From: Pohlia nutans
Taxonomy: Eukaryota > Streptophyta > Bryopsida > Bryales > Mniaceae
Direction of reading: 5' to 3'
NCBI GenBank assembly: GCA_022496805.1
Contig: CM040092.1
Span: 379,555-443,554 of the forward strand
Length of the DNA: 64,000 bases
Shown: piece after piece, positions 4,181 through 55,182 of the stretch
Layout: each line of letters opens with the position of its first letter
Position numbering within the stretch: position 1 is the first letter of the stretch
Position numbers and translations under genes: made by a program
The notes under the pieces: generated by a model
Seen by the model: the letters and a program-made list of their open reading frames with translations, nothing else
Database searches by the model: none
What the model was told of the DNA's origin: nothing

Positions 4181-6280
4181 ATGTGGAGAAGGTGATGGAA
4201 TTTGGACAAGGCAAATGGGCAATGAAAATGAAGGTGATATGGGATTAGTCTATTATGATGTGAGGTGTGACAGATGAAGTAGGTTATAAACCACAACGAT
4301 ACAGGAACTGCATGGAAGCATTTTGGGAGCCATCTGGTGGAAGACATGGCTGGGTGAACAGAGAGGATTCTATATTTTGTAGAAAGATTATAGATGTACC
4401 AACAATAACAAGAAGTGAACACTTAAAGGTGAAGTTCATTTCTATACAAGAAGTACAAATTGAGAATCAAGTAACTATTCTCAATGAAGCAAAGCCACAC
4501 ATACTTGAATAGATTGCGTTGTAAGCAAAAGGCATGGATGATGAGTGGATGCATAGCTAGTTAGATCTTTACGAGAATAGAATTGTATATGTTATACAAT
4601 ATATGGTTTTCTATATAAGGTGTTGTGGTATTAAAGGAAAAAATGTGTACTACTATTATAAAATGTAAACAAATACACGATTTTTATGTAACACAAGGAA
4701 TAATTGAATCTTCTTTGTATGTTTGTAGCTCATATCTAAATTCATACAATGTGCTTGTATGATCATTTAAAATTCATGCACAAATAAAGGATTAAGACTT
4801 TGGATGTTTTTAACGATGTCAAAAAAACTTTGTTTTTCAACATTTTTGCAGAACATCATGCAAATTATTTTCTATACCTAATTTTTTTTTAATTTTTAAT
4901 TTTTTTTTTGTGCTCAAATTGGGAAGGTCTGAAAATTGAGTTTGAAGAAAGTCTGATTTAAAACTCAATTCAACCCATAATGCTTTGAGAGATCATTTCT
5001 TGGTTGATGCCCCCTTTTATGAGGTGCCTTAGACTAAAACTTTAAAGATTTGTTTAGATTTTAATTATTTTCTAAAAAAAATCAATTATGCTTTTGAATC
5101 TAATTTGAATCAAATCAATCCAAGTTAAACTCCACTTAGGGGAATTTACAAAAAACAAAACCGCTACACAGTCTTGTCTTACAAGTTTTACTATTTTGAA
5201 AAAGTAATGTTGTTCTTTTGAGTACGTCTATTTTGTTTTACAATTATAACCAATAATACCAAATTTTGAATTCTAAAAATATAAAATGTAATTTTATTGA
5301 TTTTCTAATGTTAAATACTTCTAAATTTTATTAGTGAAGATCTAAAAATATTTTGGGAATTTAGACCGTAAGGAATATTTTTAAAGATTTAAGAATAATA
5401 TAAACTATTTAAAAAGATTCCAAAAGATTCCAAAAGATTCCAAAAGATTCCAAAAATTTCAATTTTACAATATTAAAATATTTTTCATATTTTCCCTATT
5501 TAATATATTACGTCGTTAAATTGATTGTTTTACAACATTAGAATTTTTTTCGTTCTAAACTATGACACTTGTAGTACAAAAACACCCCTGAGAATAAGTA
5601 GTATAATATTATAATATTTTTTAATACTTTCTGTTCTTTATATATATAATATTAACCCTTTGACGCGCCAGCGTCCATATTCTGGACGCTGGATGATTTC
5701 TGACGCGTCCTTTCACCACATATAGTGATGTTTTTCATCCATCCAATTTTTTTAATTCTTGTGCTAGTTGACTACCATTTGTACGATACGGATCTTCAAA
5801 ATAAGATATCGAGAATTTATGAAAAATAGCAATAGTGGTTTATGTCAAGTTTCATTCTTAGTTCAAACATGATTTTTCAAAATAATTAAAATAAAATAAT
5901 GAAAACCATACCATCTTGTAGTGCATGTTATTCCAATTTCATTACAATATTTTTAAAAAATTTAATGTTAACTTTGGATTTTTAATTGAATTTCAAGAGA
6001 AAAATTTGCAAAATCAATTAAAAAATATTAACAATAAATATGATGAATCCAACCGTACAGGTGTTATCTTCCCGCTAACATTTATATCTTTGTTTTGTAC
6101 ATCAACTCCATTTTAATTTTTTATCAAACATTTTATAACGAATATTTGAAAACAGTGTTGAATTGGGACGTTAAAGGGTTAACTACATTATTATATACAA
6201 TAAACTTGTTGACTCTATTTTAAAAGAATTAATCTAAATTTTATATTTTTAAATATATATTTTAATTTTTTTGGTGAAAT
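4181..6280. repeat. 2.1-kb repeat unit, copy 1
   Basis: This unit is repeated with a constant offset of 16,074 at 20255-22354. Reading both copies I found one substitution (G versus A near 4241) and no indel. It contains a TTAA-flanked MITE (5653-6182), four tandem copies of AAAAGATTCC (about 5415-5458) and a short open frame (4267-4512) of unknown meaning. The first 15 bases of the unit recur immediately after it (6281-6295). This implies that copy 2 originally followed directly in tandem and that the LINE later inserted 15 bp into it. The part around 5250-5460 also has a diverged inverted relative near 56620-56850. Confidence 0.9.
5653..6182. mobile_element. TTAA-flanked MITE, piggyBac-like
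   Basis: It starts TTAACCCTTTGACGC and ends GGGACGTTAAAGGGTTAA. The termini are therefore inverted repeats of CCCTTTRACGYCC bounded by TTAA on both sides, the target preference of piggyBac transposons. Just inside the left end is a hairpin: CCAGCGTCC (5668-5676), loop ATATTCT, GGACGCTGG (5684-5692). It has no transposase ORF. Related copies lie at 44456-45008 and 45864 onward, sharing the internal words GTGCTAGTTGACTACCATTT and CTTCAAAATAAGATAT. Confidence 0.8.
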
Positions 6281-10237: not shown

Positions 10238-11875
10238 ATGTCTCAAAGGCACTCTTCCGCCACGTCCGCTTATAAGTACAAAGAGAAACTCTTAGCTTTA
10301 ACGGATGTAGAAAATACGGATATGGAAATGGCTCTCACTCAAAAACGTGCGTCTAATGTCTCACAAGGAACAACAAGCCAAAAGAAGGCTAAGGGCAAGT
10401 CAAACGCGGAAGCTTTGAAACGCCCTCCCTTTTGATTTGGATTCCAAGCAATGAATTGGACTAATAGAGGGAAAGGTTACCCCATGGATACGAAAGAACC
10501 AGTAGCAGTCCTAATTAAGAATGGTATGACCAAAGAAGAGGCTTATCAATGCCAACATTGTGACTCTTGCTTCCCTTTTGTGGTACAAGAGGAATGGCCT
10601 AACAGTAGAGAGGATCTAAAAGATGGGCAACATTTCAATCTAACACAAATCCCCTCTGATGTCAAAGTGGACAAATTTGGTTTTGCCCTTGACTACCAAA
10701 TTGCCATCCACTTTGAGATGGGAGCGGTTTTGTGGGAGAAAGAAACCATCATGACTTTAGCAACTCGTAGGCTCAAAGACATGAACATTCACCTTGGGAA
10801 TGAACTTGGAGAGCCCATGGCTCTAATGTGCTTTCATAAAAGCACAAATTGGAACGGAGTTATCAAACTCCACTTGGAAAAACCCGAAATTGACGGGGTT
10901 GGGCTCCTCCAAGGGCTGCGGCCTTTCATCTTCAAACTTGATGAAGGAAAACTAAAAAGAGGTAAAGTTTGCAAAACGTACGATGCTTTGGCCCTCAACA
11001 ACTTGCTTTCAGTCAAAATCGCTAATGAAGCATTAGAGTTCAAGGAATGGCACGAAATGTATGAAACAATTGTGGTAGAAGGTTTCAAAAGGGGTCTAGA
11101 ATATGAAATCACAAATATTCAAAAGAAGAAGGAAAACACATTTGCTTGGGTAGTTGCTTCTTCACCGGAACAAGCAAAGAAGATGAAAGAACACAAGATA
11201 ACTTATAACAACGAAGTCTTGGAGGGTAAACTAGCGGATCGAACACGTGCAAGTGCGGACGACATTGCAAAGAAGAATGCGGTCATCCTCATTGCCAAGA
11301 ACCTCAACAACGTGAAGAGCATTAAAGAATTAAAGGAGAGCATCGGAGAATACATGGGGCCCAAGAACGTGGTGAACTACTTCTTCAAGTTGGATGACAA
11401 ATACGGGAAGCATCTTGGATCTTGCAACATCCAATGCTTGAATGCAACAGTGTATAAGCAGCATGTTAAGAAGTCGGCCAAGATCCTAGGAAAGTATGTA
11501 GAATTTACACCGCACCCTAGAAGTCTTGATGGTGCAAATGCTCCAAGTGCATTAGAGCTTACTAGACTAGGGTTCAGTGATGTTAACACTGCCCTAGCAA
11601 ACAGTATAGAAGCACTCACAAACATCCCACTACAAGAGAAGCCACAAAAAGACTTCTCAAAAGAACTTGCAGTGATAAGAGAAGAGATGTCAACCCTAAA
11701 AGAAGACCTAAGGAGCGAGCAAAAGCAAGTCGCCGAAAGGGTGGTGGAGAAATCTTCATCTAGCTTGAGGTCACAAATGACCATTCTCAAAAGACAACTA
11801 GCCACAACAATGGCATGTTTGGAGAATGCTACCTCCTCCACAACCAACAATGAAGAAATGGACACGTCAAACTAG
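10238..11875 (+). pseudogene. LINE ORF1 protein (one nonsense codon)
   Basis: ORF1 probably starts at ATG 10238 (MSQRHSSATSAYKYKEK), is broken by a TGA at 10433-10435, and continues in the same frame from ATG 10451 to TAG 11875, about 545 codons in all. The N-terminus is basic and Lys/Ser-rich. A small cysteine cluster (CQHCDSC) follows near residue 35 of the 474-residue second part. A central stretch (ILIAKNLNNVKSIKELKESI to GKYVEFTPHP) has the beta-alpha spacing expected of an RRM-like fold, as in many LINE ORF1 proteins. The C-terminus (KELAVIREEMSTLKEDL onward) is a predicted coiled coil. By family knowledge ORF1 would bind element RNA and oligomerise. The RRM call is inference. Codon composition is less A/C-skewed than ORF2. 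Confidence 0.65.
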
Positions 11876-12606
11876 TTTTGACACCCAACGCAGCGGCAAT
11901 AGCTCCTTTACAATTAGTATACATATATACTAAAAAAAGAGAAAAAAAATAAAAATAAAAATAAAAATAAACAAAAAACAAACCTAAATAATAAACAAAA
12001 AAATACAAAAAAACAAAAACAAAAACAATCCCTATATATAATATTCATAAATATAAATAGCACATCATCAAAAGTATACATATATACTATAAAAACTAGA
12101 AAAAAACAAAAAAAATCTACAAACATATACCTAAAATCCAAACAACTTCTAAAAATAATAAAATTATTAAATACAAAAATAAATAATTACAACTCTATCT
12201 CCCTAAAAACCAACAAAAAATATAATATATATATAGTATATATCTATACTATCTTAAAAATTCAAAAAAAGAGAAGTAAAAAACCCACACTCAAAATATC
12301 TAACAAAAAACAACATGCAAAAACCGCTAATCTAAACTACAAAATTCCAAAAAAAACTAAAAACCATCCTAAAAAATTACCAACATGAAACATTTACTAC
12401 CATAATAAAACCTAAGTGGCCTCGGCCTAGCGGCCTCGGCCAAATAAAACATAAAATAATACTAATGTACGCAACTAACAAAATGTCATACAAAAACACT
12501 CCACCCAAAAAACACCTAAACAATACTTGTAAATACAATAGATATCAACACCAAAAATATAAAATTTACGCTACTAACAAAAAAACTATTATAGCAATAA
12601 TAATAA
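11876..12606 (+). other. A-rich spacer between ORF1 and ORF2
   Basis: This spacer is strongly A-rich with many stops in all plus frames. At 12418-12446 a short repeat (TGGCCTCGGCC / GCGGCCTCGGCC) stands out as the only GC-rich patch. Stops at 12592, 12598, 12601 and 12604 end the frame just before the ORF2 open region. Confidence 0.5.
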
Positions 12607-12711
12607 AAAAATAAATCTTTAAATCCTTGCAAGAAAAAGAACAAAAAACACCTCCCTAACAAAATCAAAATTACCACCATTCCAATCTATGAAATTAACC
12701 ATAGCTTAAAA

Positions 12712-12756
12712 TTTTTACTACTCCTTTGTGGTGACGTCGAAACAAACCCGGGACCA
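12712..12756 (+). other. 2A ribosome-skipping motif
   Basis: In frame with ORF2 the sequence reads LLLLCGDVETNPGP, then MP. It matches the 2A consensus D(V/I)ExNPGP exactly, with the usual hydrophobic run just before it. By family knowledge the ribosome skips the Gly-Pro bond, here between codons 12751-12753 and 12754-12756. No ATG lies in this frame between the stop at 12604-12606 and the motif, so how the upstream peptide starts is unclear in this copy. Confidence 0.85.
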
Positions 12757-13387
12757 ATGCCAAACATACTTAAAACACACCCACCATCACATAAAAACAG
12801 AAGCAAAACATATTTCATTCCATGCACAATAAAATTGCACCCAGAATACCAACATTTAGCAAAAAAGTTTGCTCCTTGTTTAAAAACAACACACCCAAAT
12901 CACCCTGAAACATCTACAGACTATCCACACCTCTCCAGATTCATACATATAAACCAACACCATCCACCCGCTCGTATGTTATACGCACTCATTACTACAA
13001 TAAGTCCATTATTAGAAACATGTGATCATCAATTAATACGAACACCCGATCTAGACTGGACAACAATACTCCTTGAAAGAATGGCACTACTTCAAAACCC
13101 CCCCGAACGACACATTTCAAACCCACACCCTTACATTGAATTCAAAAACTCTAACCAAAACCTAATTAACCCCCCTAATACCATCCATAAACAATTATAT
13201 GATTTTATCAATCAAAACAATAATTCACTAAATATACAAATACTAACAAACAAATTCCCATTCCTACCCGAAAGTTTACTAATAGAATCTCTTAAATGCA
13301 ATATACCTATAAATGAATATTCACACCCACCTCCACTACCCAACATACCATTACCGCAAACCCAAGAGACTCAAACAACAAAACACA

Positions 13388-14160
13388 ATACACACATCAT
13401 TACATGGAACGCCTCATCTTTAAACACAGCCCTACCAAACCTACAAAACTTAATCTCAAACACCACAACAAACCCAGCAATTATCACAATACAAGAAACT
13501 AAACTAACCGCAACAAAATCAACAAAATATATACAAAATCTATTCCCAAAATACAAACTAATCTTCAACAACACCCACGCCTTAACAAGATGCATGCAAC
13601 AAAGAATGCCGTATATCCCTGCAAGAGGCGGACTTCTCACTCTAATAAATAACAAATATGCATACCCAGGAAATATCACCAAAATACCTACTCCAGCCGA
13701 AATCTCACCATATTTACAAATTATACAAATACATAATGTACCATTACAACCTTGGCTAATTCTACACATGTACATGCCTTCCCACTTAGAAGATATTCAA
13801 TATATTACAACAATACAACAAAAAATAACACAACAAATCATAGCACACCCAAACCACACATACATATTATGTGGTGATTTTAATAGAGACATAGCCCTTA
13901 TTGGAAGACAAAACGAATCCAACATAACACCTCCGCAAACAGAAGACATAGAATGGCGTGCATTCATAGACACTCTAAATCTAACTTACATACCAACAAA
14001 TAGCACATTCACCAGACAACGAGGTCAAAACTACACTCAAACAAGTTTAATTGATGGATACTACATCAAAACCCCCAATAATACATTGTATACTTCAACC
14101 ACAAACCACGATTACAACCTAAACTCAGACCATTCACCAGTCACCCTACAAATACCACCA
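13388..14160 (+). other. APE-type endonuclease domain of ORF2
   Basis: Motifs in order: HIITWNASSL, IQETKLT, LHMYMPSH, LCGDFNRD, SLIDGYY and NSDHSPV. These carry the Asn, Glu, Asp-x-Asn and Ser-Asp-His catalytic positions of exonuclease III-like LINE endonucleases. The domain itself has no stop. The nonsense codon at 14374 lies after it. Confidence 0.85.
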
Positions 14161-16999
14161 AACACACTATTAGCCCGCTCCACACAACCAAAAACAAATA
14201 AACCACCAAGGATTCTAAATCCCATCCCACAAGATAACATAGAAAAATTCAAAACACAATTTTTCGAAGAAAATTCACTCCAAATCAATGAACTCACTAC
14301 AATATTGATGAACGAACAATTAACAAACAACCAATGGCAAACATCTTGTACAAAATTAGACCACTTAATACAATAAATATCAGAAAAAATCCAAGAAACC
14401 TGTAGTGCTCCACCCCTACCCTCACTAACACGCCGCACAGCTCAACAAGGAGGTTTTTTGCCAAGAAAACTCCAAAAACAATGGAAAAAACACCTATCTA
14501 CCTACCACTTAATCAGAAAAGCAATATACATAACAAAAACCATACCAGCTTGGCAAAATCACCCAATAATAGAAGAATTAAAAAACTATAACCACATTAC
14601 CATCCCTCCACCCCCTAGCCCAGAATTAAATCCACAAGAATGGATTAAAACTCTAGCAGAACTAGCTAAAACCGCAAACAAACAAGCACGGAAAATTACC
14701 ACTAAATACACCCAAGACTATGTTAAAAAAGCAATCACAAAATATAGACAACTATATGAAAAAAGCCCCAAGAAAATAAATAAAAAAGTTTTTAAGAACC
14801 AAGTAACACCACCGTTAGATTGCATTATGGATAGAAACAACAACATACTAACTAGCCCAGAAGACATAGCAAATGAAATTTATATTCAACAATCAATTAG
14901 TAATAGACCTACAGTCCCAACATGTTATTACCAACCAGAACATCCAACCAATTGCACATGTGGAGTTAAACAATACCCATGGCATGATCTAGAAGGATTT
15001 ATAATAGATACAAGAGGAGTCCCTCAAACACCACTACATGAATACTTCGACCAAGAAACATATGATTTATGTTTAAAACACCTATCCAATAACAAAACAC
15101 CAGGCCCAGATAAAATTCCAAACTCAATTTTAAAAAATATGCCTGAAAGCTTTCATAAACTACTATTCCTATTTTTCACCCACTGCTACAAACAGAAAAA
15201 AATCCCAGCATCATGGAAAATAAGTCTAACCATACTTTTGTACAAAAAAGGGGACCCATCACTATTACCAAACCACAGACCTATAGCACTTGCAAACACA
15301 ATCTATAAATTATATACTAGCACACTAACACTAATACTATCATCGTATGGTGAAAAATATCAAATACTACACGACAGTCAAGAAGGATTTAGAGCAGAAA
15401 GAAGTACATCCAGACAACTACAACTACTCATAGCAGCCCTAGAAGACGCTAGATTTACCAACCAAAACATATACCTTCTATACATAGACTTTAAAAATGC
15501 ATTTGGTTCCCTTGACCACGCTAGACTACTAGCTATAATGAAAGACCTTGGATATCCATTAGATGCAGTAACACTAATTGGAAATATTTACTCACACTCT
15601 GCCACCATATTTACCGGTGAACACTTCGGCAAAACAAAACCAATACCCATTCAAAGAGGCACCATCCAAGGAGATACACTAAGCCCATATTTATTTCTGA
15701 TATTTCTTGAACCACTACTTAGATGGTTACAAAGAGGTAAAAACGGGTACACATTTGGTACATCGAAATTAACCATCAGCTCTGCAGCATACGCAGATGA
15801 CCTAGCAGCTATAACAAATAATCTCCAATCACTACAAAAGCAATTAAACAAACTAGATAAATTCTGTGAATGGGCTGGAATGGACTTGGGTGTACAAAAA
15901 TGTGCCATCACTGGATGCCCCAACAAATCCAAACTAAAACCTGAAAAATTTAAGACCCAAATACAAAACCATAACATATCTTACAGAAATCAACCAATAC
16001 CCGTTCTACATCAAAATGAACCTTATGTATACTTAGGCATTCAGCTAGTACCATCACTAAAATGGAAACTCCAAACACACATCACTACAAACAAAATAAT
16101 AGACCAATGCAAACAACTAGCCAAATGCCCCGCCACAATTAAACAAAAAATTAGCATGGTTGACACCGTCATTAGAGCAGGCATTGCATATAGTTTTTAT
16201 GCAGTCCCATACTCACTACCGACAATCAAAAAACTAGATAAAAAAATTATAGGAATCCAAAAAACAATATGTGGACTACCAAAATGCACAGCAAATGTAA
16301 TAACCCAATTACCGCACGAACTCTTTGGTCTTGAAGCCTTCTTACTAAAAAACGCATATCTACGATGCATCGGTGAACAACTTAGAAATGCACTTAACGA
16401 CCAAAGGAGACTAGGTATAATATATAAGGGACTTATACACCACATATTAGCCAAATATGGAGGCGCGGAAGAAATCCCAAGAATCACACAATATAATTGC
16501 ACTAATTCACCAACCATCCGTACATTATTTCTACTAAAAAATGCTGGAGGAATTCACCTCAAAAGTACAAATGAAAATTTCCTACTACATATGACAGAAT
16601 TGGAACGAGAATGGCGAGCACAATCAACAAATGAACTTCCACTTCTCGACCCCGAACTTTCACTCAAACTTTTACACAAATTATTAATCAATAACATATA
16701 CGAAATAAAACACATCACCCTTCCCAACGGAACAACCCTTATGACGCCAGAAAACTTTAAAACATACTACAAAACACCAACCAAACTAGAAAAAAGCGCA
16801 CTTCAAATAGCTCAACAATTGTTCTGCTACCCAAGTTGCACACCAGATTGCCCAAACCCATGTGCAAGACACCCACCCGCCCGTACGCTTAAACCAAGAT
16901 TCATCTCAAATAACCAAAACATATTACCAAGAGCACCAGCTAACCCACCTCAAACCCCAGCCCCACAACAACATCTTCACCCAAACCCACCCCCTAAAA

Positions 17000-17155
17000 T
17001 TTCCCATTGACATAATATTAAACCACAAAACAAATACCTCAAAAGATAAATATAAAATAACAAAAAAATATAACACATACCTATGTCAATGGACTCTTCA
17101 AAACAACGATACATACAACAAATGGATGCCACAAAGAGAACTCTTTCCTTTTAAC
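17000..17155 (+). other. Chromodomain-like segment of ORF2
   Basis: In the frame shared with the downstream RNase H part, the sequence runs FPIDIILNHK, then YNTYLCQWTLQ, then YNKWMPQRELF. This follows the chromodomain layout (I-L-x-H-x-x ... Y-L-V-x-W ... x-x-W-x-P-x-x-x-L), with aromatic residues at the expected methyl-lysine cage positions. Chromodomains are known at integrase C-termini of plant chromoviruses, not usually in LINEs. The assignment rests on this pattern only. Confidence 0.5.
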
Positions 17156-19081
17156 CACCCAACAACCATTGCACACAACATCAAACTACTAACAGAATAG
17201 TACACAAAACTACAACACAATCACTATAAAAAAATTATTAACACACACTTCACTCTTGAACAGAGCAGAGATACAAGATTCATCCCTCCTCCCACATCCA
17301 CCCCGCTTACACACATACACATACAAGAATGTAACCCGGAAAAAGACATTATTTCCAATTACGATACCATACAAATCAATAATGAACAAACCCACCTATT
17401 CGAAGATACCGGTAGACACCTTATCACTATACCAACCACGAGACTAAAATGGCTATGGCAACAATATAACAAAGCAATTTATAGCTCACACGGCCTAGTA
17501 CCACAAACACAATCATTTGAAAAAGAAGTAATATGGCTCTATCAAAGATACAACCATAAAATCCCCAGAAAAGACCCACTAAAAGCAGCACAACATACTC
17601 TACCAACAAGTATTTTGGACTCCATTACTACCTCCTTTAATATCTCCCACTCATACTTCTCTTCACCAATAACATGTTCCACACAAATTTCAGAATTTTA
17701 CTCTCCCTTTGCAAGAGATAAAGTCTTTGGATCACTCGGTACCGCCTTCCAATACAAATGGAAAGGCATAGGCTACGCCCACCCACATAATGAAGAAACA
17801 ACCCAACAAGCAATTCACTGGGCAAGATTGGCAGCCAAAACCGACCCAAATACCATTACTATACTGGTAATACCAGATACAAATTGGTACCAAAATTCCT
17901 CCCCACATATGGGGCCTTTTTCAGACACCCATACAATTGCCCACTTCGCCGCAGACTCCATCACATACGAAGAACCAACAATCCCACAAGAACTCCATAA
18001 ACCAAAGACAGAACCCCTCGTAATCCGCGTCCTATGCATTCACCACCAAGATCACAACATTGGTACACCATACCAAATAAATACAATTAAAGCAGCAATT
18101 GAAAACCTACAAATCCCACAATATCACATACAAAATGCTCCACGTACCCACCACAACACACCGGTCAATAAAAATAAAAAATGGAACAAACTCACATACC
18201 CGCCTTCCACCAACCCAACCACTTTAAACACGCCACCCCTACCAAACTTTGTGACAAACACTACCCCTAAATTCCAACCACAACATAGCTACTATACCGA
18301 TGGATCCTTCATACCTCCTGAACAAGCCCTCGACGGACACTGGAAAAAAGAAAAAGCCGGATACGGAATATACAACTCCACAAAGGCTGACATGCAAATA
18401 TCAGAAAGATTACCAGGCCTACAAACATGTTTTCGAGCAGAAATAATGGCTATACATCAAACACTTATTTTAATCACTACTAAATACCCAGACGAACCGG
18501 CAAATATATTTACAGATTGCCTCAACTGCCTATACAATCTAAACACACACATTAAAAATCCAACCACACACAACAATCACGCGGATAAAACCATACTAAC
18601 AGACTTGGTAGAAATGTTAAAAGCTCGTACTCAACCCACCACATTCCACAAAGTTAAAGCACATACCAACATTGAAAGCAACGAACAAGCGGATAAACTT
18701 GCAAAACTGGGGGCCAGAAAAGAATACTTCAGAGCCACAAGTTCATATGAATTTGCACATACAACACCATTCTATTTTCAAAAAGATATTAGGTCAGGAC
18801 CTATAAAACGACCAGATAAAGGCCCCGTCAGATGTCTCCAAACATATCTAACCAAATATGACCAAGAAAATAACCTTGAAGAAATGGCAATCAAATTTCC
18901 CAACATTTGCAAATGGACCATGAACCCAAACATCGATAAAGAACTATCAAATACATTTTGGTCCAATCCTACAATCACCGACTCACAAAAAACAATTATA
19001 TTAAAACTTCGTACTGGCCAATATATGGGTAATGCTAGAAAACAACTATTTTTTGGTAGAGAAAGATTCCCCTCAATAACA

Positions 19082-19743
19082 TGTTCTATCTGTAACTCTG
19101 CAGATGCAGACACATGGCTACACGTACTCCTAAAATGCAATCACCACCATATTCACGCCATTAGAGTCAAAAGACACAACAAAGCAGTTTGGGAAATAAG
19201 GAAATTAATCCTTTCATCACAAAAATCTAGATGTTACACCCTCATGAACGCAGGAACATTCAACAACCCCCAAGAAAACACAGTACCCCCATGGCTACTA
19301 CCATGCTCATGTGAACAACAAAGATGCCATTGCAACGCTAGATTCAAACCAGACATCCTTTGCGTAAAAGGACTCCCATACAATAATGACCCACCATCTC
19401 ATCCATCAAACAACCTCACAATTCAATTTATTGAATTTACATAGTGTAATGACAGATTCCCACAAACAACAATAGATATCAAAAATCAGAAATACAACCA
19501 CTTATTAACAACATTATTAATTTAGGATGGAAAGTTGACCCACTCATAGTCATCACGGCAGGAGCTAGAGGCACAACACATATCCCCTCGATGAAACTCC
19601 TTGAAACAAAATTTAAATTACCAGAAACTACCATTAAACACACATTCAAAGAAATAAACACCATTGCTATACATCATGCCAGATCAATTATTCTACATAA
19701 AAGAAAAATAGAAAATAACCAACCACTACCAACAGATTACTAA
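19082..19743 (+). other. CCHC plus restriction-like endonuclease domain of ORF2
   Basis: CSIC, then TWLHVLLKC (C-x2-C-x9-H-x4-C) and VKRHNKAVWEI, match the zinc-knuckle and RHN block that precede the R2-type restriction-like endonuclease. KPDILC (19345-19362) and IEFT (19430-19441) supply the PD...E core, and KY plus GWKVDPLIVITAGARGTTH follow in the next frame up to TAA 19743. A TAG at 19442 and a frameshift near 19490 break it in this copy. Confidence 0.7.
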
Positions 19744-22354: not shown

Positions 22355-24788
22355 TGACGTTTAATAATGCACTTTTCAATATTTTAGAAATTGGTGAGTT
22401 ATGAAATTTGTTGGATTTCTGTTGATTTGGTCACAATTTTTCCTACACTGCCTAAAACCAACAGAAATCAGACAAATTTTTTTGATGCCTAATAGAAAGT
22501 TTGAAAATTAGAGAAAATGGTCATTCCAATGCACGAAACAACAAAATGTTGTTGATTTTTTGTTGATTTGGTTGCCATTGTCTAGTAGTGCTCCTAGAAC
22601 AACCGGCTTTGCTTTGTTATATTGGCTACACAGTGTGTAGTGTTTTCTTTCGCTGACTTTTTTTCTTGAAACTTTCATAATTATTTAAATAAAAATGAAT
22701 AAATTAATTTTGTTCTATCCAAAAACGGTTTTTCACTTCACACAAGGGAGACACTAGCAACGAGAACAAGAGGATGAAAGTCTTTCCGTCAACCATCATC
22801 CATCTACGATGGCCATCTATCCCGACACTTGTCAGAAACTGACATAAAGTTGACATAAATACTAAATTGCATCCAAACCTACATAAAATATATTAAAAAA
22901 AAAAATTGTCAATTCGGACTAGAACTTGTCAATTCACACAAGGGAGACACTAGCAAGGGAATATCCCAATGTGATAATTGTGAGATTATATTTCAAGCAC
23001 AATAATCGTCTATCATCTTTAAGCAATTGTTTAGTAAAATGTGTCTCACACTTGTGCAAGTTGATGATATGTTTTGAAATTTAGTTGAAAACAACTACAT
23101 AAAAAATCCCTTGCGTTAACATATTTCTTTGGATTTAATTCATGGTACTGTAGAGATCAACATGAAAGTACAAAAGCCTAACAAAATTTGCAATTTTTTA
23201 AGCAATGTTAGCATTAAATATTATGGTTTGGATTAGAATTATGTAGTTGATTAATCAAAGAAATGATGTTTGTAAGTACATATTACAATTAGGGTTTCTT
23301 TTTAGTTGAAGAATTTCAAGTGCAATTGGTTCATGCCTTCACATGACTTAGATTGTCATGTCTTTTATGTAGTTCATGAGCAAACATTGAAGGACAACAA
23401 TGTCTTACAATCCTTATGTTCCAAGTTAATCAATTCTAATTTTAAACTCTTTATTTATTAATTTTACTTCTATTAGAGCCTTAGAGGATTGTTTCTAATT
23501 GAAAATATATTGTAAAGTTGTATTGAATTAAATTTTTGTTGAATGATTTGTAAGGCACATGACTATGTTCCACCAATAAAGCTTTCTATGTATTTTAGGG
23601 TTTATCTAGTTGTTTGCAACTATGTGTCAATCAACTGTTATTGTGAAATTTTATAATATTGATATTCTTCTAATTTTTTTGAAATATTGCAGATGTTTTG
23701 TACTATGTGAATGATATTTATTTGGTTGATGAATAACATTTGAACACTATCCAACAATATATATTTGAAAAACTATAATTTATAAATGTGATGTTGAAGA
23801 TTGTCAATTTGAATCAATATCATATTTACTATTAGATCATTGAAGTGTATTTAGTTAGAATTGATTTTAAATCTATAATTTGAAAAACTAATTATAATTT
23901 ATTAAAAATAATAATAGATGAATGGATAATTTAATATATGAATTAGGAGAAATACTATTGCATCAATTTGGAATGATTGAATGTTTCAAGATTACTTCAA
24001 AAGTATTCATATTGCATTATGTTATGTAAATCAATTAAATGTACATTCCAACAATCAATTTTATAGTTATTCAATTCGTCCAAGCTTCATTATATTATGT
24101 TTATTAAATATATTTGGAAAAAATCTCACAGTTATACTATTATTGTTCTAAAAATGACTATTGAGGTAGTTCTTAGTTAGCATGTAGTTGGGCATGGGGT
24201 TCAAGTAAATTATGCATAGGGTTCAAAGTCTATTGTAGTAGCTAGTGTTTGAATTGGTTATGAAGGACTAAAAAATCATTTAATGGGTTGCTACAATTCA
24301 TGATTATTATAAGACCTAGCTATATAAATTAAATTTAAAGGAGTTGAATCAACATAATTGTGGATCAACATAGTTGTGGAGTCTCAATGCAAGCAAGTGA
24401 ACGAGCGGCAATGATCACCAACAATACATCGACATGTTTGCATGAACACAATCAATGGCAGATAATAGTTTTGTATATGAACTCCAAGAACTGCAAGTGT
24501 AGAGATTGAAGTTAAAGTGCGTGCAAGTATTATTAAGATAATACAACTTATGAATTAGTAAGAAAAGTGGTATTAAACTAGCTTTTGTTAGGTCAAACAT
24601 ATTTTGGTGGAATGTAGAGCAACTCATGCCACTTTTGTATTATTGCCTGAGATTTTTGCGGACATGTAACTATTGACAATTAAAGGAACATTGGAAGTTG
24701 AAATCCATACGCTCTAAAGGAAAGAGGTGGTGTGGAGTGGAGTGGAGTGGAGTCAAAGAAAATATATTCATCAAACGCTACAAAGAGC
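22355..24788. other. Intergenic DNA upstream of the GLR gene
   Basis: AT-rich. 22420-22590 contains inverted words (GATTTCTGTTGATTTGG / CCAACAGAAATC) and ends CTAGTAGTG, the terminus of the CACTA-like family seen at 3697. A 24-bp word, TCACACAAGGGAGACACTAGCA and neighbours, occurs at about 22737 and 22931. A short (GGAGT)4 repeat sits at 24732-24752, within 60 bp of the GLR start. No gene was seen. Confidence 0.5.
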
Positions 24789-27700
24789 ATGTGGAAGCCA
24801 TGGTTGATCACATTATTGTCATTGCTCTTAGTGGTAAATTTTTGTAGTTGGCTTAGTGGCCTCGAGGCTATAGACATTACTATTGCCCCAATTCAACCAG
24901 TAGTGCAATCCCAAAAGACAAAATCGATCGGCGTTGGGGGATTGATCGCCTTCAATTCTACTATTGGACGAGCGGCTAAAGCAGCTTTGGAACTTGCTAT
25001 CCGAGACGTCAACAATGCCTTACTCTTAGGTCAATCTACGCAATTGGTGTTGCATTTAGGCAACACAAATTGCAGTGCTTTTCAAGGAGCGGCTGCTGGT
25101 AAGTTCGTTGTCCCTCTTATCTAGTACTTACTTTTAATTTTGTGTATCTCCAATGCCAAACATTTATGTTTATATGAAGATCTTCATTGACATATGAGAA
25201 TGATTATTATGTTTAGCATTTATATACTACTTCAAATTAGCCAACTCATGTCAAATTCTAAAAGGATTATATTATGTGTGTACAAAACTGGAACTAGTAT
25301 AACAAGATCATTGATACTCTCTTTGTGCTTTTCTCCTTATACCTCCCTCATGTACTTGATCTTTATCACAAAATTCAACTTTATGCTACTGAGTTGTGCA
25401 CATATGGACTCATTCAACCACTACAATATTGTACTATTTTGTAGGTTATGGTTCTAATGGAGGTTGGCATGTATGTATGTAGCAATGAACTTATTGAAGG
25501 AGGAAGTGGTCGCCATAGTGGGACCCCAGACATCAGTAGTATCGCATTTTGTATCCCATATGGGCACTGCTACACATGTGCCATTGGTGTCCTTCTCAGC
25601 GACAGACCCTTCACTATCTGAAGACCAATATCCTTATTTTGTTCGTCTCACCCATAGTGATACAGTGCAAATGGCTGCCATTGCAGGCATCTTCTTAATC
25701 ATTACTTCCCTTTGATTTGATTAATCAGACTCTTTTTATTCTATTTTATATAAAGTATTTGCAATGGTATTTTCTTTCCAAACGCACATCCATTAGAGTT
25801 CTAATATTGAACAAATTTATATTATTGAATGAATCGACGTGATGGTCTTTTTGCCCTATTAGGGTTGAACACTTTAGAGTATTGATAGGAATGTTTTGCG
25901 AATATGTACAAATATTATGAAAAACATGCTCAAATATACTCAAATAATTTGATATCAGGCGGGCAAGAGGCTAATCCGATGAAAGTGTGCAAACAAACAA
26001 CGTGACAACCATAATGTCCATGAGTAGAATTAGTAATAGTAATAGTAGTATCAATTGGAAGAATATAAATAATCTATGTGTGGGCAATGTAGGAATTATC
26101 CAGTATTATGGGTGGAGGGAGGTGACGGTGTTGTATACGGACGATGATTTTGGCAACAACGGCATTGATGCCTTAGGCGATGCTCTAAAGGCAATAGGCT
26201 CCAATATAGTTTATAAAGCCGGTTTAGATCCAAAAATTTCTAGTGATGGCATTGGCCGAGTATTGACTAAGCTATCGCAAATGGAGTCGCGTGTATTTGT
26301 GGTGCATATGGAACCCAACATTGGTCGAGAACTCATTGTCATGGCACAATGGTTGCAAATGACTACACTTGGCTACGTATGGATCTTCACTGAGGCTATG
26401 TCCAGTGTCATGGACTATGTGGAGCATGATGTAGACTTTGTACAAGCACTACAGGGTGTTCTTTCTACTCGGAGCTACATTCTATCTTCGTCATTGTTGA
26501 CAGCCTACAAATCTCGATGGACCGAGTTCTATGTTGCTAATCGCACACTTGGTCTCGCACAGATGAACAATGTGTATGCATGGTATGCATATGATGCGGT
26601 GTGGATGATTGCGTATGCCATTCGAAACTTCTTAGCGCAAGGCGGAGATACTACGTTTGTGGATCCTATAGGCTATTCTAGTGATGCAGGCGGCGGCACG
26701 GAACTAGCCAATCTGAAGGTTTTTCGTGATGGCTTGTTGTTCATGCAAAATCTTGTGCAGTTTACATTCCAGGGCATTACCGGGCCTGTGCAAGTGGATG
26801 AGCGTGGCGATTTAATTGGTTCTTCTTTTGAAGTTCTCAACATGGTGGATAAGAGGTTGCGAGTGGTAGGCTTTTGGTCCAACTCCACAGGCTGTTTGCC
26901 ATTTGCCCCCAATGTTCATAATTTGTCTTCCATACTCGGTGTCAACCATGTTTTAGGCCACGACTCAAAATTTGGGGTTTGTTTTTCCTAATTCTCCTTG
27001 TTTGATAGTTTTATTATTTTATATCACTTTGAGCTTTTAGCCATTCCATGTGTTTATTGAATAGTCATATATTTTAGCTTTGTCAATATATTTGCATTTT
27101 GAAAGATTCTTCTTTCTAAATCGTAATTGATTTGGCATTCATTCTTGTTGTGTATATGATGACTTGGTGCACCTACATTCCTGCGCACAGTTGCAACCTG
27201 TTATTTGGCCTGGTTTTGTAACAGAGGTGCCTCGAGGCTGGGTAGTTCCTAAAAATGGACGACCTTTAATTATTGGAGTGCCAAACAAGATTGGATACAA
27301 AGAGTTTGTAACGTCGACTTTAGATTACGAAAATCGAACTTCCTTTCATGGATTTTGTGTTGATGTGTTTCTCCAGGCATTGACCAATCTACCCTATCCT
27401 CTTGCCTACAGCTTCTCTAAATATGGCAATGGTAGTTCAACTCCCAATTATGATGCTCTCGTCAACAAGATAGTTGATAAGGTACCTTCGTATTCTATGT
27501 CTTGGTCTACCTCCACATTACATCATGTAGATTTGAATTATATCTACATACATATCTGCTAGCCTTTTATTGCATGTTGATATATTAATTGAGTTGTCAA
27601 TTGGCCAATAGTGGTTGTCCATGTATCAAGGTATCACATTGAGGTGAATTTCAACATTTATTTGTTACATCATTTTTTAGCGCTTCACTCAAAAGAATGT

Positions 27701-30079
27701 ATTATGTATGACAATTTCTTTTAGTTCTTGCATATATGTAGCACTTACCAATGTATTTATTTGGCCCAAGTGTTGTTTTGGATATCCCTATGTGAAATAA
27801 GTACTATATTTGTATAGATGGGTTGAGCAGGATTTTGATGCAGTTGTAGGAGATGTCACCATTACAACAAAGCGTTCCATGACAGTTGATTTCACTCAAC
27901 CATACACAACCTCTGGATTGGCTGTTGTTGTGCCTATTAAACAAGGTGACGACAACCATGCTTGGGCATTCATGCGTCCTTTCACGCCTCTTATGTGGGT
28001 CACCACTGGTGTCTTTTTTTTCTTCACCGGTCTTGTCTTGTGGTTTTTGGAGCACAAAAAGAATCGTGATTTTCGTGGCCGTCCTAAAAAGCAGATTGTC
28101 ACCACCCTTTGGTTTGTCCTCTCTTGCTTTGACAATAAAAAAGTAATTAAGTGTTAATAAAAGACTATTACAAATGATATTCATTGTACATTCTATATCA
28201 TGCATGTTAAGGATTTAATCTCAGTATATAGATCCATTAGATGTCTAATTTTTTGTATTTTTTACAATTTTATATACTATCTTCTTCATTAGCCATGTAT
28301 ATATCAACGTACTCACACTATTTGCATTGCAATTGATGATTCATCTTGCAGGTTCATCTTTTCGACTCTTTTTTTTTCTCAAAGTAAGACCACTGTATCA
28401 ATCTTTGCCTATTTAGACTTGCTTCCTCTTGTATGCACTATTGTAACAGTCAATTGTGCCCATTTTTAAGAGACAACTTAATTGTAGTTTAAGCATGATG
28501 CTAGGTACTAGAAAAGTATTGATAGGTGTGTAGTTTTGTTGTGATGTTGTTTTTGGCTAATGCCAATAGGTAACAATTGTAATTGAATGGGTTGGACTGG
28601 CAGGAGAAAGAATAAATAGCATGTTGGGGAGAGCAGTTCTCATTATATGGTTGTTTGTGGTGCTCATTATCATCAGCTCATACACAGCCAGTTTGACTTC
28701 ACTCCTTACTGTACAACAACTCTTGCCTACAATTCAAGGCATTTCAAGCTTGCTCACTAGTAACGTCCCTATAGGGTATCAAACTGGATCTTTTGTGCGT
28801 GATTACCTCCTTCAGCTCAACGTTGCTGAAGAACGACTCGTACCTTTGGATACTCTTGCAGCATACGCAACCGCATTGACTAAGGGTCCCAACCATGGAG
28901 GTGTTGGGGCCATTGTAGATGAGCTACCCTATGTTCAATTGTTTTTGTCCTCTGAGTGTGCATTTACTATTGCGGGTCAAGAATTTACTAAAAGTGGTTG
29001 GGGTTTTGTATGTAGTTTTCCACCCTTATTATTGTGTTCACTTTATAAGTTTTTTTGGGGATCTCTATACTATATTATAATGTTTCTAATATTAGTAGCT
29101 ACAACATCATACTAATATTGACTTTATACACATTCTAGGATAATTAGGATAATGATTTTCACTAATTTGATAATGATTCTTACTAACTTAACAATGGTTG
29201 GGTGTTTTTAGGCATTTCCAAAGGGATCACAATTGGCTATTGATTTCTCAACCGCAGTTCTTAAACTTGCAGAGAATGGAGAATTGCAACGCATTCATGA
29301 CTTATGGTTGGACAATGAAAGTTGTACAAAGCGTAATGTAGCACGTGATGCCACTGAGTTGGGTTTAAACACATTCTGGGGGCTCTTCCTCATTACGGGT
29401 TGTGCCTCTATTTTTTGTTGCTGTGTTTATTGCACTCGTATGATAATTCGGTACCACAAGATGTCTCACGGACATATGGTGGATGTTGAGGTAGATCTTG
29501 AATCTTTGGCTAAACATCATTTACTTAATTTTTGTCAATTATCATCTTACCCCCGCATCTTATCTATATGCCTTTGGTCGAACTCATTTTGTATGCCGAT
29601 GACAATATGCACTGCAGACAAAAATGTCTCGTTTAGAAGCCAGCAAGAGCTTTTTGAAGTCACTAGTGTCTTTTATGGAGGAAAAAGAGGTCCCCATACC
29701 AAGAAATTCGAGACGTCGAAGAAACTCTAAACAAGAGTGGTCGACTTCGGATCCAATGAGGACTTCTTTAAATATGCCCAAACTATCCAAAGGCATATCA
29801 AGGTCTCCAGAGTCCATCAAAGATTTTTCTCCCCAAGAATTAGCAATACTTAGTTGGACATTAGAATCTAAACCAACCTCAACAGCTACTCCTGCTTCTG
29901 AAACAGAAACAATAATATCTACGACAACACTTCCAGAAGAACATCCATCTCTTGTTACCAATACAACAAGAGAGGGAAAGGAACAAGATGCATTTTTATA
30001 CTCCAAAGAAAGTGCAAATAGTTGTACACTTGAAATCCAAAACTTCAAATTTCATGATCTTGGTCTACCGTCCATATAA
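24789..30079 (+). CDS. GLR: Glutamate-receptor-like cation channel
   Basis: A ligand-gated non-selective cation (Ca2+) channel of plant membranes, complete in nine exons: 24789-25098, 25483-25686, 26093-26976, 27191-27481, 27831-28111, 28352-28383, 28604-29007, 29212-29490 and 29618-30079. Phases agree throughout and give 1,048 residues. ATG 24789 opens a signal peptide ([12 protein letters not shown]). An amino-terminal LIVBP-like domain follows (residues about 45-440). Then come LBD S1 ([24 protein letters not shown]), M1 ([15 protein letters not shown]), the pore ([10 protein letters not shown], on its own 32-nt exon), M3 ([10 protein letters not shown]), S2 (GWGFAFPKGS) and M4 ([17 protein letters not shown]). 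The tail is basic and Ser/Thr-rich. The exon 2 donor appears to be GC. Exon 5 could begin 3 bp earlier. No internal stops. Confidence 0.93.
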
Positions 30080-52239: not shown

Positions 52240-55182
52240 ATGACGAAGGCGCAGGTGAAGACGAAGTACGACGCGGGGTCGAATGCGGCCACCGCGACGT
52301 TGTCGCTGCCGCTGGGCGACATGAAGCTCAAGGCCACGTGCGCGGACAACACGTTCGTGCCCGGCGAAGCGGCCAGTTGGCGCGGCGTTTCGTTTGGCTT
52401 GGAGAAGCCGGGCACCTTCATGATCGACTACGACATGCCATCACAGGTTTCTATTCTCAATTGATTTCTTCAACCAATGTAGTAGGTCGCAATGGCGCAC
52501 GCAATTGATTTTTCGCGTCCCGCGAATTTGAAACCGCATTGAGGGTTTTCGACACCTTTATAGGGTTTTGTTGTTATTGTCATATTTGAGAGTGAACAAT
52601 CCCGCTATCTGTACAGAATCGGTATTAAATTTTAGAGAGCTATGGCCCCGGGGTTGTACGTATTGTTATCTGTGAGCAATGTGAAGCTTGAGTGCTCTCT
52701 GGATTCGAAGTTAAGAGGTGAAGTCTCGTTAATGTTGGTGTGCATTTTCTTTCCGAATAGTAAATCCGAGGGAAAACAAGGCCTGTCAGCAGTGCACACG
52801 AAGTGTGAATGCCCGTAGGCGAGCTTAATCAAGATCGCAAGCACAATCAGTAATACAAATCAATTAGATTATTCTTTGTTCAATTGAAAATATTTCCCAC
52901 ATGCAGTTGCTACTCTGAACCCTCTCTGTAATTTCACACTCCCGGTAAATCCTGAGAATCTTTGACGTTGTGTGAGCATCTGTGAGGACAGCTTCCACAT
53001 GTCAAGTTCTGAACGCATGTAATCTTACTCTGGTAACTGAGATCACTTGTGCACTGCCGGAGAAGCTGATTATAACTGTGTAGTGATCCTCACTTCGTTC
53101 CATCTTTAATTCTAATTGAACAGTAGGTCTACCTTGTGCTTGTGCTGTAATGCTTGCTCGGTTTGATGAGAGTGCCCATTTGTTCACCTGAGTGTACCTG
53201 CCATGTCATTGGAGAGGCAGTGTCATTAGAGAGGCTTGAGATTACCTGCAATGTTCAGATACTAAACCCCTTGGGCTTTCAATTGCGCTGTCACATGTTT
53301 AGGTCACAGCTTTAGACTTGTGTTTTTTCTGAAACCAGTTTGCTCGTTTGTATTATTTAGGGTTTAATTATTTTTTTACGAAAAAGGGGTTCCCTAGTGT
53401 TGATCTCACTGACCTTTGTTCTTATGAATACACTAGGGTCCATTTTAAACAGAACTATGGACACATGCAATCCTCTTCATTGATTCTGCCAGTGACATAA
53501 ACTTGACATTGAACAAGTATTTGATTGATTATCTAACTCCGAGCAATATAAGTTATTGGTGGAGTTTCTTAGATATCAAATAATGTAGACAGGTTGAAGG
53601 ATGAGTGTCCCTCAATCGTGCTTTTTTCACTATATGATCAATGAAATTGGTGTTAAACGTTTCAAACGGGACAGAGGGAGTACCGGGAACTTACAATAGT
53701 GTGAAATTGAAGTGCAGGCTCCCAGGTTTCAGTTCATGGTGGGGGCAAGTGTTGCAAAGAAGCCGTTGAGGTTGACCTATATCCATGCGCAGAAGCGCAA
53801 CGCCACAGTGTTGGAGGCGAACCTGGCTGTGGATCCACGCAACAAGGTGGTGGGAAAGTACAGCTTCAACACAAACAAAGGCTCCTTGAAGTACACGTAC
53901 GTGCATGGCAGTGGGGCCACATTTGAGCCTTCCTATGACTTCCAAACGGAGGCCTGGCACTTTGCTGCGTCACGCAAGGTCGGCTCCCACGACAGCGCGC
54001 GTGTCTGTTATGATGCGCATGCCAGCACTGTTGGTCTGGAGTGGACCAGAGACTCCAGGGAGTTTGGCCAATTCAAGGTAACTACGCAGCACTGATCTCA
54101 GTCAGTTCCTTCTTTTACAATGTACTCCCTCTGTTCCGAAATAAAATGCATCTCTGAGATTACAAATACATGAATAAATTGATGGGGCGAGCCATGGCGT
54201 CATTGGTTACTGAATGCGATGTATAGAGCGCTCAACGACGTAAGCTCGGGCACAGTAGGTGAGCGGAATAAGCAAACGGTCGTTTTGTTACGGAACATAA
54301 AATATGTTCCCGAGTGCTTTTTATTTCGGAACAGACTGGGGGAGTACTCTTCTATTGCAGTATTCGATTCCAAACTTCACTGAAGTCGGATTTCGGTGTA
54401 TATACATTGCATTTACCCCTGAAAGACCAAGACATTAACAGTCTTGGGGATTACTGTTTCTTCGTTATAGTCTTGGGGATTACTGTTTCTTCGTCTTGAG
54501 TTCGTCATATGGGGATTACTGTTTCTTCGTTACTTTTTGACCTACATGTTCAATGTTCTTCATTGATATAAACTTTGGCCCAAGTTCTGAATCACATTTT
54601 TCTCAATCGAATCAGTCATTTTCAAACCATGAATCCTTGGTCCTTCAGGGGGTTAACATCTTGGTTATATCTTGGATCTGATTCGGAACATAACATCAGG
54701 TGCTTCAGATTATGGTGTACATTCACCTCTAAAGGACCAAGACACCCAAATTGGGCCTCATGTTTTTATTTTTATTTATTTTTAGCAATTTTGAGTAGGT
54801 CATTTTGTTTCATTCAATTTATTTATCTTTTCACTGATTTTATTGATATAAAATTTGGCTCCATTTTTCACAACGTTGAATTGAAAATTGAAAATCAATT
54901 GAAAATTGAATTGGTCATTTTCAAACCTTGGCTCTTTATGGGGTTGTATCTTGGCTATTGTAGTGGTCTTGAAATGATGGAGAAGAGAGTTCTTTAGACA
55001 TAAATTTTTATTACATGACCTGCCTTTCAACATGGAAACTGTATTTCAATAATTTTTCATCAGTAACTGTATGTATTGATTGTTTTGTGGAATGAGTGTT
55101 GCAGATTATAGCCACAGTACCTACTGATACCTCAAAGACACCAAAGCTTATAGCTGAGAAGACATGGAGTGTGGATTTCTGA
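52240..55182 (+). CDS. OEP24: Outer envelope pore protein 24
   Basis: A beta-barrel solute channel of the chloroplast outer envelope, for phosphorylated metabolites. Three exons, 52240-52446, 53718-54077 and 55105-55182 (TGA), all phase 0, encode 214 residues, the normal family length. Matching blocks include the N-terminal VKTKYDAG, GVSFGLEKPGTFMIDYD, FQFMVGASVAKKPLRLTYIH, LKYTYVHGSGATFEPSYDF, GLEWTRDSREFGQFK and the C-terminal PKLIAEKTWSVDF. As usual for this family there is no cleavable transit peptide. An upstream in-frame stretch (from 52168) has no ATG, so ATG 52240 is the start. Introns are 1.27 and 1.03 kb, and the second carries three MITEs. The first exon is much more GC-rich than its surroundings. 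Confidence 0.93.
53670..53686. mobile_element. Solo Stowaway-like terminus in OEP24 intron 1
   Basis: GGGACAGAGGGAGTA matches the inverse of the CTCCCTCTGTCCC terminus seen at 48399. No left end was found within the intron. Confidence 0.4.
54123..54346. mobile_element. Stowaway-type MITE in OEP24 intron 2
   Basis: It starts TACTCCCTCTGTTCCGAAAT and ends ATTTCGGAACAGACTGGGGG then AGTA. The inverted termini of about 25 bp are flanked by TA, as in Tc1/mariner-derived Stowaway elements of plants. Length is about 224 bp with no ORF. Confidence 0.8.
54413..54656. mobile_element. TTAA-type MITE (GACCAAG family) in OEP24 intron 2
   Basis: Left end ACCCCTGAAAGACCAAGAC, right end TTGGTCCTTCAGGGGGTTAA. 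It belongs with 32407-32620. Three tandem copies of GGGGATTACTGTTTCTTCGT (about 54447-54530) lie inside. Confidence 0.7.
54722..54947. mobile_element. Decayed GACCAAG-family MITE in OEP24 intron 2
   Basis: CCTCTAAAGGACCAAGACACC at the left and TTGGCTCTTTATGGGGTTGT at the right. Internal words match 32407-32620. Both TTAA sites are mutated. Confidence 0.6.

Follow-up and report, generated by a model that had tools for sequence, protein, structure and literature searches.

The 2A, or StopGo, signal is a short ribosome-skipping peptide known chiefly from animal viruses. Ingi and L1Tc elements have the order APE-RT-RNase H and are not known to carry a restriction-like endonuclease (RLE), nor are plant L1 elements. 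Heras in 2006 and Odon in 2013 are said to have described 2A sequences in the L1Tc/Ingi elements of trypanosomes and in animal LINEs of the CR1, L2, Rex1, and Crack groups, and Odon reportedly tied the 2A to loss of ORF1.

Dualen-type elements are placed in green algae in the available excerpts of PMC4640811, PMC3636483, PMC8226300, and PMC3747384, which hold no mention of a 2A for Dualen. In the plant field, an excerpt of a 2025 review (PMC12371167) presents StopGo as a viral sequence and a borrowed biotechnology tool. A 2026 survey (PMC12846837, PNAS 2026) found no natural use of StopGo by plant viruses. It also defines an LLLLSG-like upstream class that ends in (A/S/C)G before D, and reports that sequences with His at p14 are more than 95% active, with 56% or 26% for earlier E14Q mutants. 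Among the matches listed from the CC-licensed PMC literature, there was no report of a 2A in plant LINEs or Dualen elements.

The element and its motif in the window

The window is a stretch of 64,000 nucleotides from the genome of Pohlia nutans. Its element has the following features.

10238..11875, +, ORF1, with one in-frame stop near the N-terminus here; 542 codons in copy L043
11876..12606, +, A-rich spacer between ORF1 and the 2A; open in the ORF2 frame in fuller copies (the leader), interrupted by stops in the window copy
12417..12442, +, GC-rich hairpin TGGCCTCGGCCTAGCGGCCTCGGCCA within AT-rich leader sequence; MFE ~-17 kcal/mol, little synonymous divergence
12607..12711, +, open in-frame leader adjoining the 2A, 35 codons, no ATG
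12712..12729, +, hydrophobic lead-in FLLLLC, of the 'LLLLSG-like' StopGo class
12730..12756, +, 2A/StopGo core GDVETNPGP, with the skip predicted to fall between G (12751-12753) and P (12754-12756)
12757..12759, +, ATG straight after the 2A; candidate alternative AUG start, unconserved among divergent subfamilies
12760..13389, +, helical N-terminal domain of ORF2; the confident AF2 fold starts directly after the 2A
13390..14373, +, APE endonuclease region (Pfam PF03372/PF14529), ended here by TAA at 14374
14458..17010, +, reverse transcriptase region (Pfam PF00078, E 2e-28), with YADD at 15781-15813
17615..19444, +, weak PCIF1-like stretch, RNase H (~18290-18720), CCHC (19082-19138), and first half of the RLE (PD at 19337-19372)
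19525..19743, +, second half of the RLE, GWKVDPLIVITAGARG...PLPTDY stop, in a different frame in the window copy

Positions 12712-12759 (+) translate to FLLLLCGDVETNPGPM, in frame with the APE/RT ORF, and the next codon (12760-12762) is Pro. A sequence-only reading of this DNA had described a 2A motif in frame with ORF2 and followed by Met-Pro, and the translation of 12712-12762 agrees. The window copy matches the StopGo core (D/G/C/N)(V/I)ExNPGP exactly, and the upstream residues expected of a StopGo sequence are present in frame as LLLLCG. The ORF2 frame stays open from 12607 to the TAA at 14374, across the motif and the APE domain, and the RT continues in the same frame beyond. From the stop at 12604-12606 up to the motif, this frame contains no ATG. 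Its first one is the Met codon straight after NPGP (12757-12759).

The likelihood of a chance occurrence was estimated with a strict DNA pattern, GGNGAYGTNGARNCNAAYCCNGGNCC, and its reversal as control. Within the 697.8-Mb genome, the pattern has four exact matches and the control none. Each of the four is found at the start of ORF2, in the window element or a relative. The 2A motif of the window copy is taken to be real, neither a chance match nor a relic. The copy that carries it is broken by the in-frame stop in ORF1, the TAA at 14374, and frame breaks after ~17 kb, and is itself dead.

The APE domain is N-terminal to the RT (Pfam PF14529/PF03372 and PF00078), and RNase H is present (PF00075, E 2.4e-14). 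A C-terminal restriction-like endonuclease follows (CCHC, PD...E), and the RLE domain fold from copy L047 matches the RLE of R2. By this domain content, the element is assigned the Dualen/RandI architecture, i.e., APE, RT, RNase H, and a second, C-terminal R2-like endonuclease. The reading as the ORF2 of a plant APE-type LINE holds for the host and the APE-RT core, but the element is not a generic one, as it has the second endonuclease. The RLE sets the element apart from Ingi/L1Tc and plant L1.

ORF1 matches no Pfam family above cut-off, and its best E against 173 retrieved proteins is 0.48. Rfam gives nothing at gathering in the window, and no match with E ≤ 1 in 11800-12800. The N-terminus of the RNase H ORF (17615-17885) has a weak PCIF1_WW match (E 3e-6, below cut-off), also seen in 9 of 53 long relatives. 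From this weak match, the LINE group may carry a PCIF1-like domain near its RT and RNase H.

Two other coding regions are found in the window. Positions 24702-29727 (+) hold a multi-exon plant glutamate-receptor-like (GLR-like) gene. A piece of it (25987-26991) has as its best PDB match 'Glutamate receptor 3.4' (E 2.6e-52), which we take to be the Arabidopsis protein, followed by NMDA receptors at ~2.3e-8. The plant setting previously proposed for a 2A at the head of ORF2 is in keeping with this gene. An exon-like ORF at 53700-54092 (+) presumably resembles a chloroplast outer envelope protein (OEP24-like).

The motif in sibling copies and relatives

The genome was searched with the leader-2A-APE piece, which contains the motif. 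From 1913 first-look candidates, 74 scored matches were obtained, and in 72 of these the alignment begins at or before query residue 16 and so spans the 2A (residues 42-50). Inspection covered 35 distinct places, namely the 30 best (L008-L037) and L039-L043, which were chosen for long open frames; L038 is the same place as L016. The exact in-frame 2A core is present in 29 of the 35 across the 698-Mb genome, a count over copies that share ancestry, are not independent, and were found with a motif-bearing query. Sibling copies lacking the motif, or having it out of frame, had been named as what would refute the reading, and this check did not refute it. The exceptions are L015 (NLGP), L027 (NPGA), L028 (NPRP), L035 (a stop codon in place of E), L039 (E replaced by K), and L024. 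Five of the six look like single-residue decay; in L024, the upstream sequence is unrelated. Nearest-neighbour divergence over 1.5 kb downstream ranges from 0 to 9% in 30 aligned copies, so the motif is kept by young and older copies alike. L042 has two successive 2As, the first degenerate, and the motif region of L040, L041, and L043 is LLLLLLSGDIETNPGP. In L006, a Tc1/mariner-like transposase ORF identified by eye (5103-5843, -) lies between the 2A and the APE domain as a nested insertion.

In the 30 aligned copies, pN/pS is 0.098 for LLLLC and 0.176 for GDVETNPGP, as low as that of the enzyme (0.16-0.23 in ORF2 stretches downstream of the motif). With a high pS of 0.32 within the motif, the constraint acts on protein and not on DNA. 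In the leader, pN/pS is 0.53-0.60 over codons -70 to -14, and upstream of these it is 0.75-0.80. In 16 copies chosen for open leaders, pN/pS is 0.44-0.81 per 20-codon step and 0.25 at the 2A, and reaches 1.3 in the low-pS step that contains the GC element. Selection has preserved the 2A signal among the many related elements of a large family.

The leader-2A-APE query has 176 protein matches. Of the best 120, 49 cover the 2A site and 71 stop short of it. Among the 49, the motif is exact in 37, one step off in 10, and missing in two, P0011 (a near miss) and P0053. A 16-row alignment, its rows picked for carrying the motif, reaches down to 37-39% identity to the window and has invariant G, D, N, P, G, and P. 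Fifty distinct homolog segments were collected with a search pattern that fixed NPGP and limited p14 to E, H, or Q. Residue p14 is E in 42, H in six, and Q in two, and p15 is any of eight different residues. These E-to-H and E-to-Q variants agree with fully and partly working ones in the excerpts of PMC12846837. At least three of the five residues at p5-p9 are hydrophobic in 46 of the 50. Tandem 2As occur in P0012, P0016, and P0052.

Among 53 long relatives, many of them partial or perhaps late-starting, six have a 2A. Two are proteins of the green alga Haematococcus lacustris, with LLLAAGDVEANPGP and AGDIEPNPGP; P0122, P0123, P0127, and P0129 also carry one, two of them with G at p12. Two other long relatives also have NPGP, but solely inside RNase H. 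P0142 has no 2A, though its RT is nearly identical to that of P0141, and P0144, beside P0123, is also without one. Absence or loss of the 2A in some lineages is likely from these comparisons. In an RT tree of 48 rows, the window family falls in a 33-row clade (98/93) with the algal P0140, P0141, P0142, and P0144. The RT groups with Haematococcus, Pleodorina, and Parachlorella proteins, in a tree that had no reference labelled Dualen. The 2A is found in several separate branches, and would be either old with losses or repeatedly gained. Phage records gave no match to the RT, and IMG/VR gave 42 pattern matches with no relative among them by tblastn.

Some of P0129, P0132, P0140, P0141, P0153, and P0154 have the accessory Pfam domains PF02338, PF02099, PF02902, or PF00145, which we take to be OTU, Josephin, Ulp1, and DNA methyltransferase, respectively. 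As read from precomputed Pfam domains, accessory enzymes may have been gained recurrently among the relatives.

The leader and its translation

In fuller copies, the leader is an open, weakly constrained, usually AUG-less stretch of ~100-235 codons. The short leader of the earlier suggestion does not cover this length. The GC element is present in 26 of 30 copies, and the 600 nt (200 codons) before their motif contain 85 stops in the 2A frame vs 436 and 388 in the others. Eleven of the 26 have zero stops in the 2A frame over this distance. Eight of the 26 were compared one by one with dinucleotide shuffles, for which 11-17 stops are expected; 0 of 500 shuffles are open as far. The four copies without the GC element (L017, L018, L019, L033) lack this bias, with 57 stops in the 2A frame vs 46 and 36, and their upstream DNA may be unrelated. 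Some 18-30 translated residues are expected ahead of a StopGo site. Across the 30 copies, zero stops were counted in aligned columns -40 to -14; direct reading places stops 24, 24, and 31 codons before the motif in L018, L019, and L033.

No in-frame AUG precedes the motif within its open stretch in 23 of 31 places that have a motif row, the stretch being short in some. Depletion of AUG is suggestive only, as some copies have 0-1 upstream AUG per 750 nt, where ~4 are expected from base composition, and others have at least five.

The GC element folds as a hairpin with an MFE of -16.8 to -18.8 and z of -2.2 to -3.9 in five of six copies; the remaining copy, L013, has an altered arm and a z of -0.35. 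The hairpin lies ~290-310 nt before the 2A in the window (12417-12442) and also in L020, L026, L039, and L043, and is conserved at the nucleotide level. It could be an initiation or RNA-packaging element.

A search of 30 copies located the C-terminus of ORF1 ahead of the 2A in 19, where ORF1 ends 656-857 nt before the 2A. A fixed frameshift from ORF1 into the leader is ruled out, since all three phases of the ORF1 stop relative to the 2A frame occur in these 19. Of the 11 copies without an ORF1 match, six (L021, L023, L025, L028, L035, L039) have copies of a 5' segment joined to the leader, and no ORF1 in their available upstream DNA. The segment is tandem in L025, L028, and L039 with a period of 249 bp, or 83 codons, so that the repeats keep the frame. 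In-frame AUGs are found in three of the six, and the frame of L039 is open for 1144 codons ahead of the 2A.

AF2 models of the leader-2A-N-terminus-APE piece have mean pLDDT of 51.9-72.4 (five models; best 72.4, pTM 0.48). The block of residues 1-50 is unfolded (pLDDT 28-37, which for the leader may partly stem from poor alignment in that region), and residues 51-160, directly after the motif, reach 78-92.

With a probability of about 0.8, this is a genuine StopGo/2A in the ORF2 of a land-plant Dualen/RandI-type retrotransposon, in which the leader is translated and released at NPG|P and the enzyme gains a uniform start. The reading builds on the motif, its frame, purifying selection, the open low-constraint leader frame, and the structured protein right after the motif, all visible in the sequence. 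From these we infer skipping in the plant, the route of initiation in the leader, and the purpose, a clean N-terminus for ORF2p. Ribosomes would translate the leader in frame with ORF2, usually without an AUG. At NPG|P the leader would be released and translation would continue. The enzyme (helical domain, APE, RT, RNase H, and RLE) would then start Pro-Met-Pro... regardless of the leader, which would be translated but disposable, its sequence hardly mattering. Entry would be by a non-AUG route; candidates are a non-AUG start, reinitiation after ORF1, and internal entry, and splicing is also possible. The AUG after NPGP may be a second entry point. Weighing against this account are the mostly AUG-less leaders, an AUG after NPGP that might start ORF2 with no help from the 2A, the shared ancestry of the copies and the choice of the long loci for open frames, the unbiased frames of L017, L018, L019, and L033 and the nearby stops in the last three, and the 2A in 6 of 53 long relatives.

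A wider version is put forward tentatively. ORF2 might be expressed without a dedicated AUG, by ribosomes that begin at several non-AUG points in the A-rich leader or come in once ORF1 has terminated, with help from the GC hairpin. The 2A would make one uniform ORF2p from the heterogeneous leader fusions, and the AUG after NPGP would be a backup that gives nearly the same N-terminus. StopGo would then be a 'start-site eraser' of green-lineage retrotransposons, natural to plants.

Other readings give the motif a different role or none. ORF2 could start at the AUG after NPGP, with the motif a relic or chance sequence in an untranslated leader. In 22 of 31 places, no in-frame AUG comes before this one in the open stretch (L026 has ATA there), and it is the sole AUG in 750 nt in L020 and L027. 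Against such a start are the motif's pN/pS of 0.176 with pS 0.32 and the open frame upstream, and Met does not follow the 2A in 19 of the 50 distinct segments, some being first copies of tandem 2As. Because of these 19, the AUG is unlikely to be a general start of ORF2, and the reading as a whole is very improbable. Even less credible is conservation of the motif as a piece of the folded ORF2 N-terminus and not for skipping. The motif adjoins a conserved domain, but is left unfolded by AF2, and its free position and E/H/Q variation fit the tolerance of StopGo.

A role in dosage is unlikely, though less so. The 2A might chiefly stall or drop ribosomes and keep ORF2p low, as 2As can terminate translation for some ribosomes in the excerpts of PMC4981915 and PMC5009743, and tandem 2As recur. 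Such a throttle does not by itself account for a 200-codon open leader. Improbable, too, is dual targeting, in which the unskipped leader-2A is a signal sequence that sends part of ORF2p elsewhere, as in the sea urchin NLR 2As. The N-terminal position and leucine run are in its favor, and the sea urchin precedent functions in plant cells (PMC4981915, in excerpt). However, the hydrophobic run is short and lies within a basic leader that is open for 24 to >200 residues and poorly constrained, and a signal sequence is expected at the very N-terminus. The change of ORF2 location once proposed for this element is disfavored if it were to come from a signal-peptide-like leader, for the same internal position of the run.

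Comparison with known systems

A conserved native example would supply plant-adapted 2A sequences and place StopGo in green-lineage biology. It raises the testable question of how a LINE with an AUG-poor open leader produces its enzyme, and widens the range of Dualen-type elements from green algae to a land plant.

As in L1Tc/Ingi, CR1, L2, Rex1, and Crack elements, the 2A core is near the start of the APE-RT ORF and StopGo is expected. The trypanosome and animal elements reportedly have a single endonuclease, whereas the window element has a land-plant host and an extra RLE. An ORF1 is upstream in 19 of 30 copies here. Odon reportedly linked the 2A to loss of ORF1; here, six places have 5' repeats in place of an ORF1 in their available upstream DNA.

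The sea urchin NLR 2As (PMC4981915, in excerpt) are likewise N-terminal on a protein of a cellular genome; the sea urchin 2A is active in plant cells. Their leader is a signal sequence, whereas that of the plant element is long, basic, and poorly constrained. The viral 'LLLLSG-like' StopGo class (PMC12846837, in excerpt) shares the L-rich run, (A/S/C)G, and D at p12, but comes from virus ORFs, unlike the 2A of the plant element. The Dualen/RandI group, in the excerpts of the four papers cited at the outset, shares APE, RT, RNase H, and an R2-like endonuclease; the window element differs in its land-plant host, its separate ORF1, and its 2A. A 2A in LINEs is already known, and the land-plant, Dualen-type setting appears to be new.
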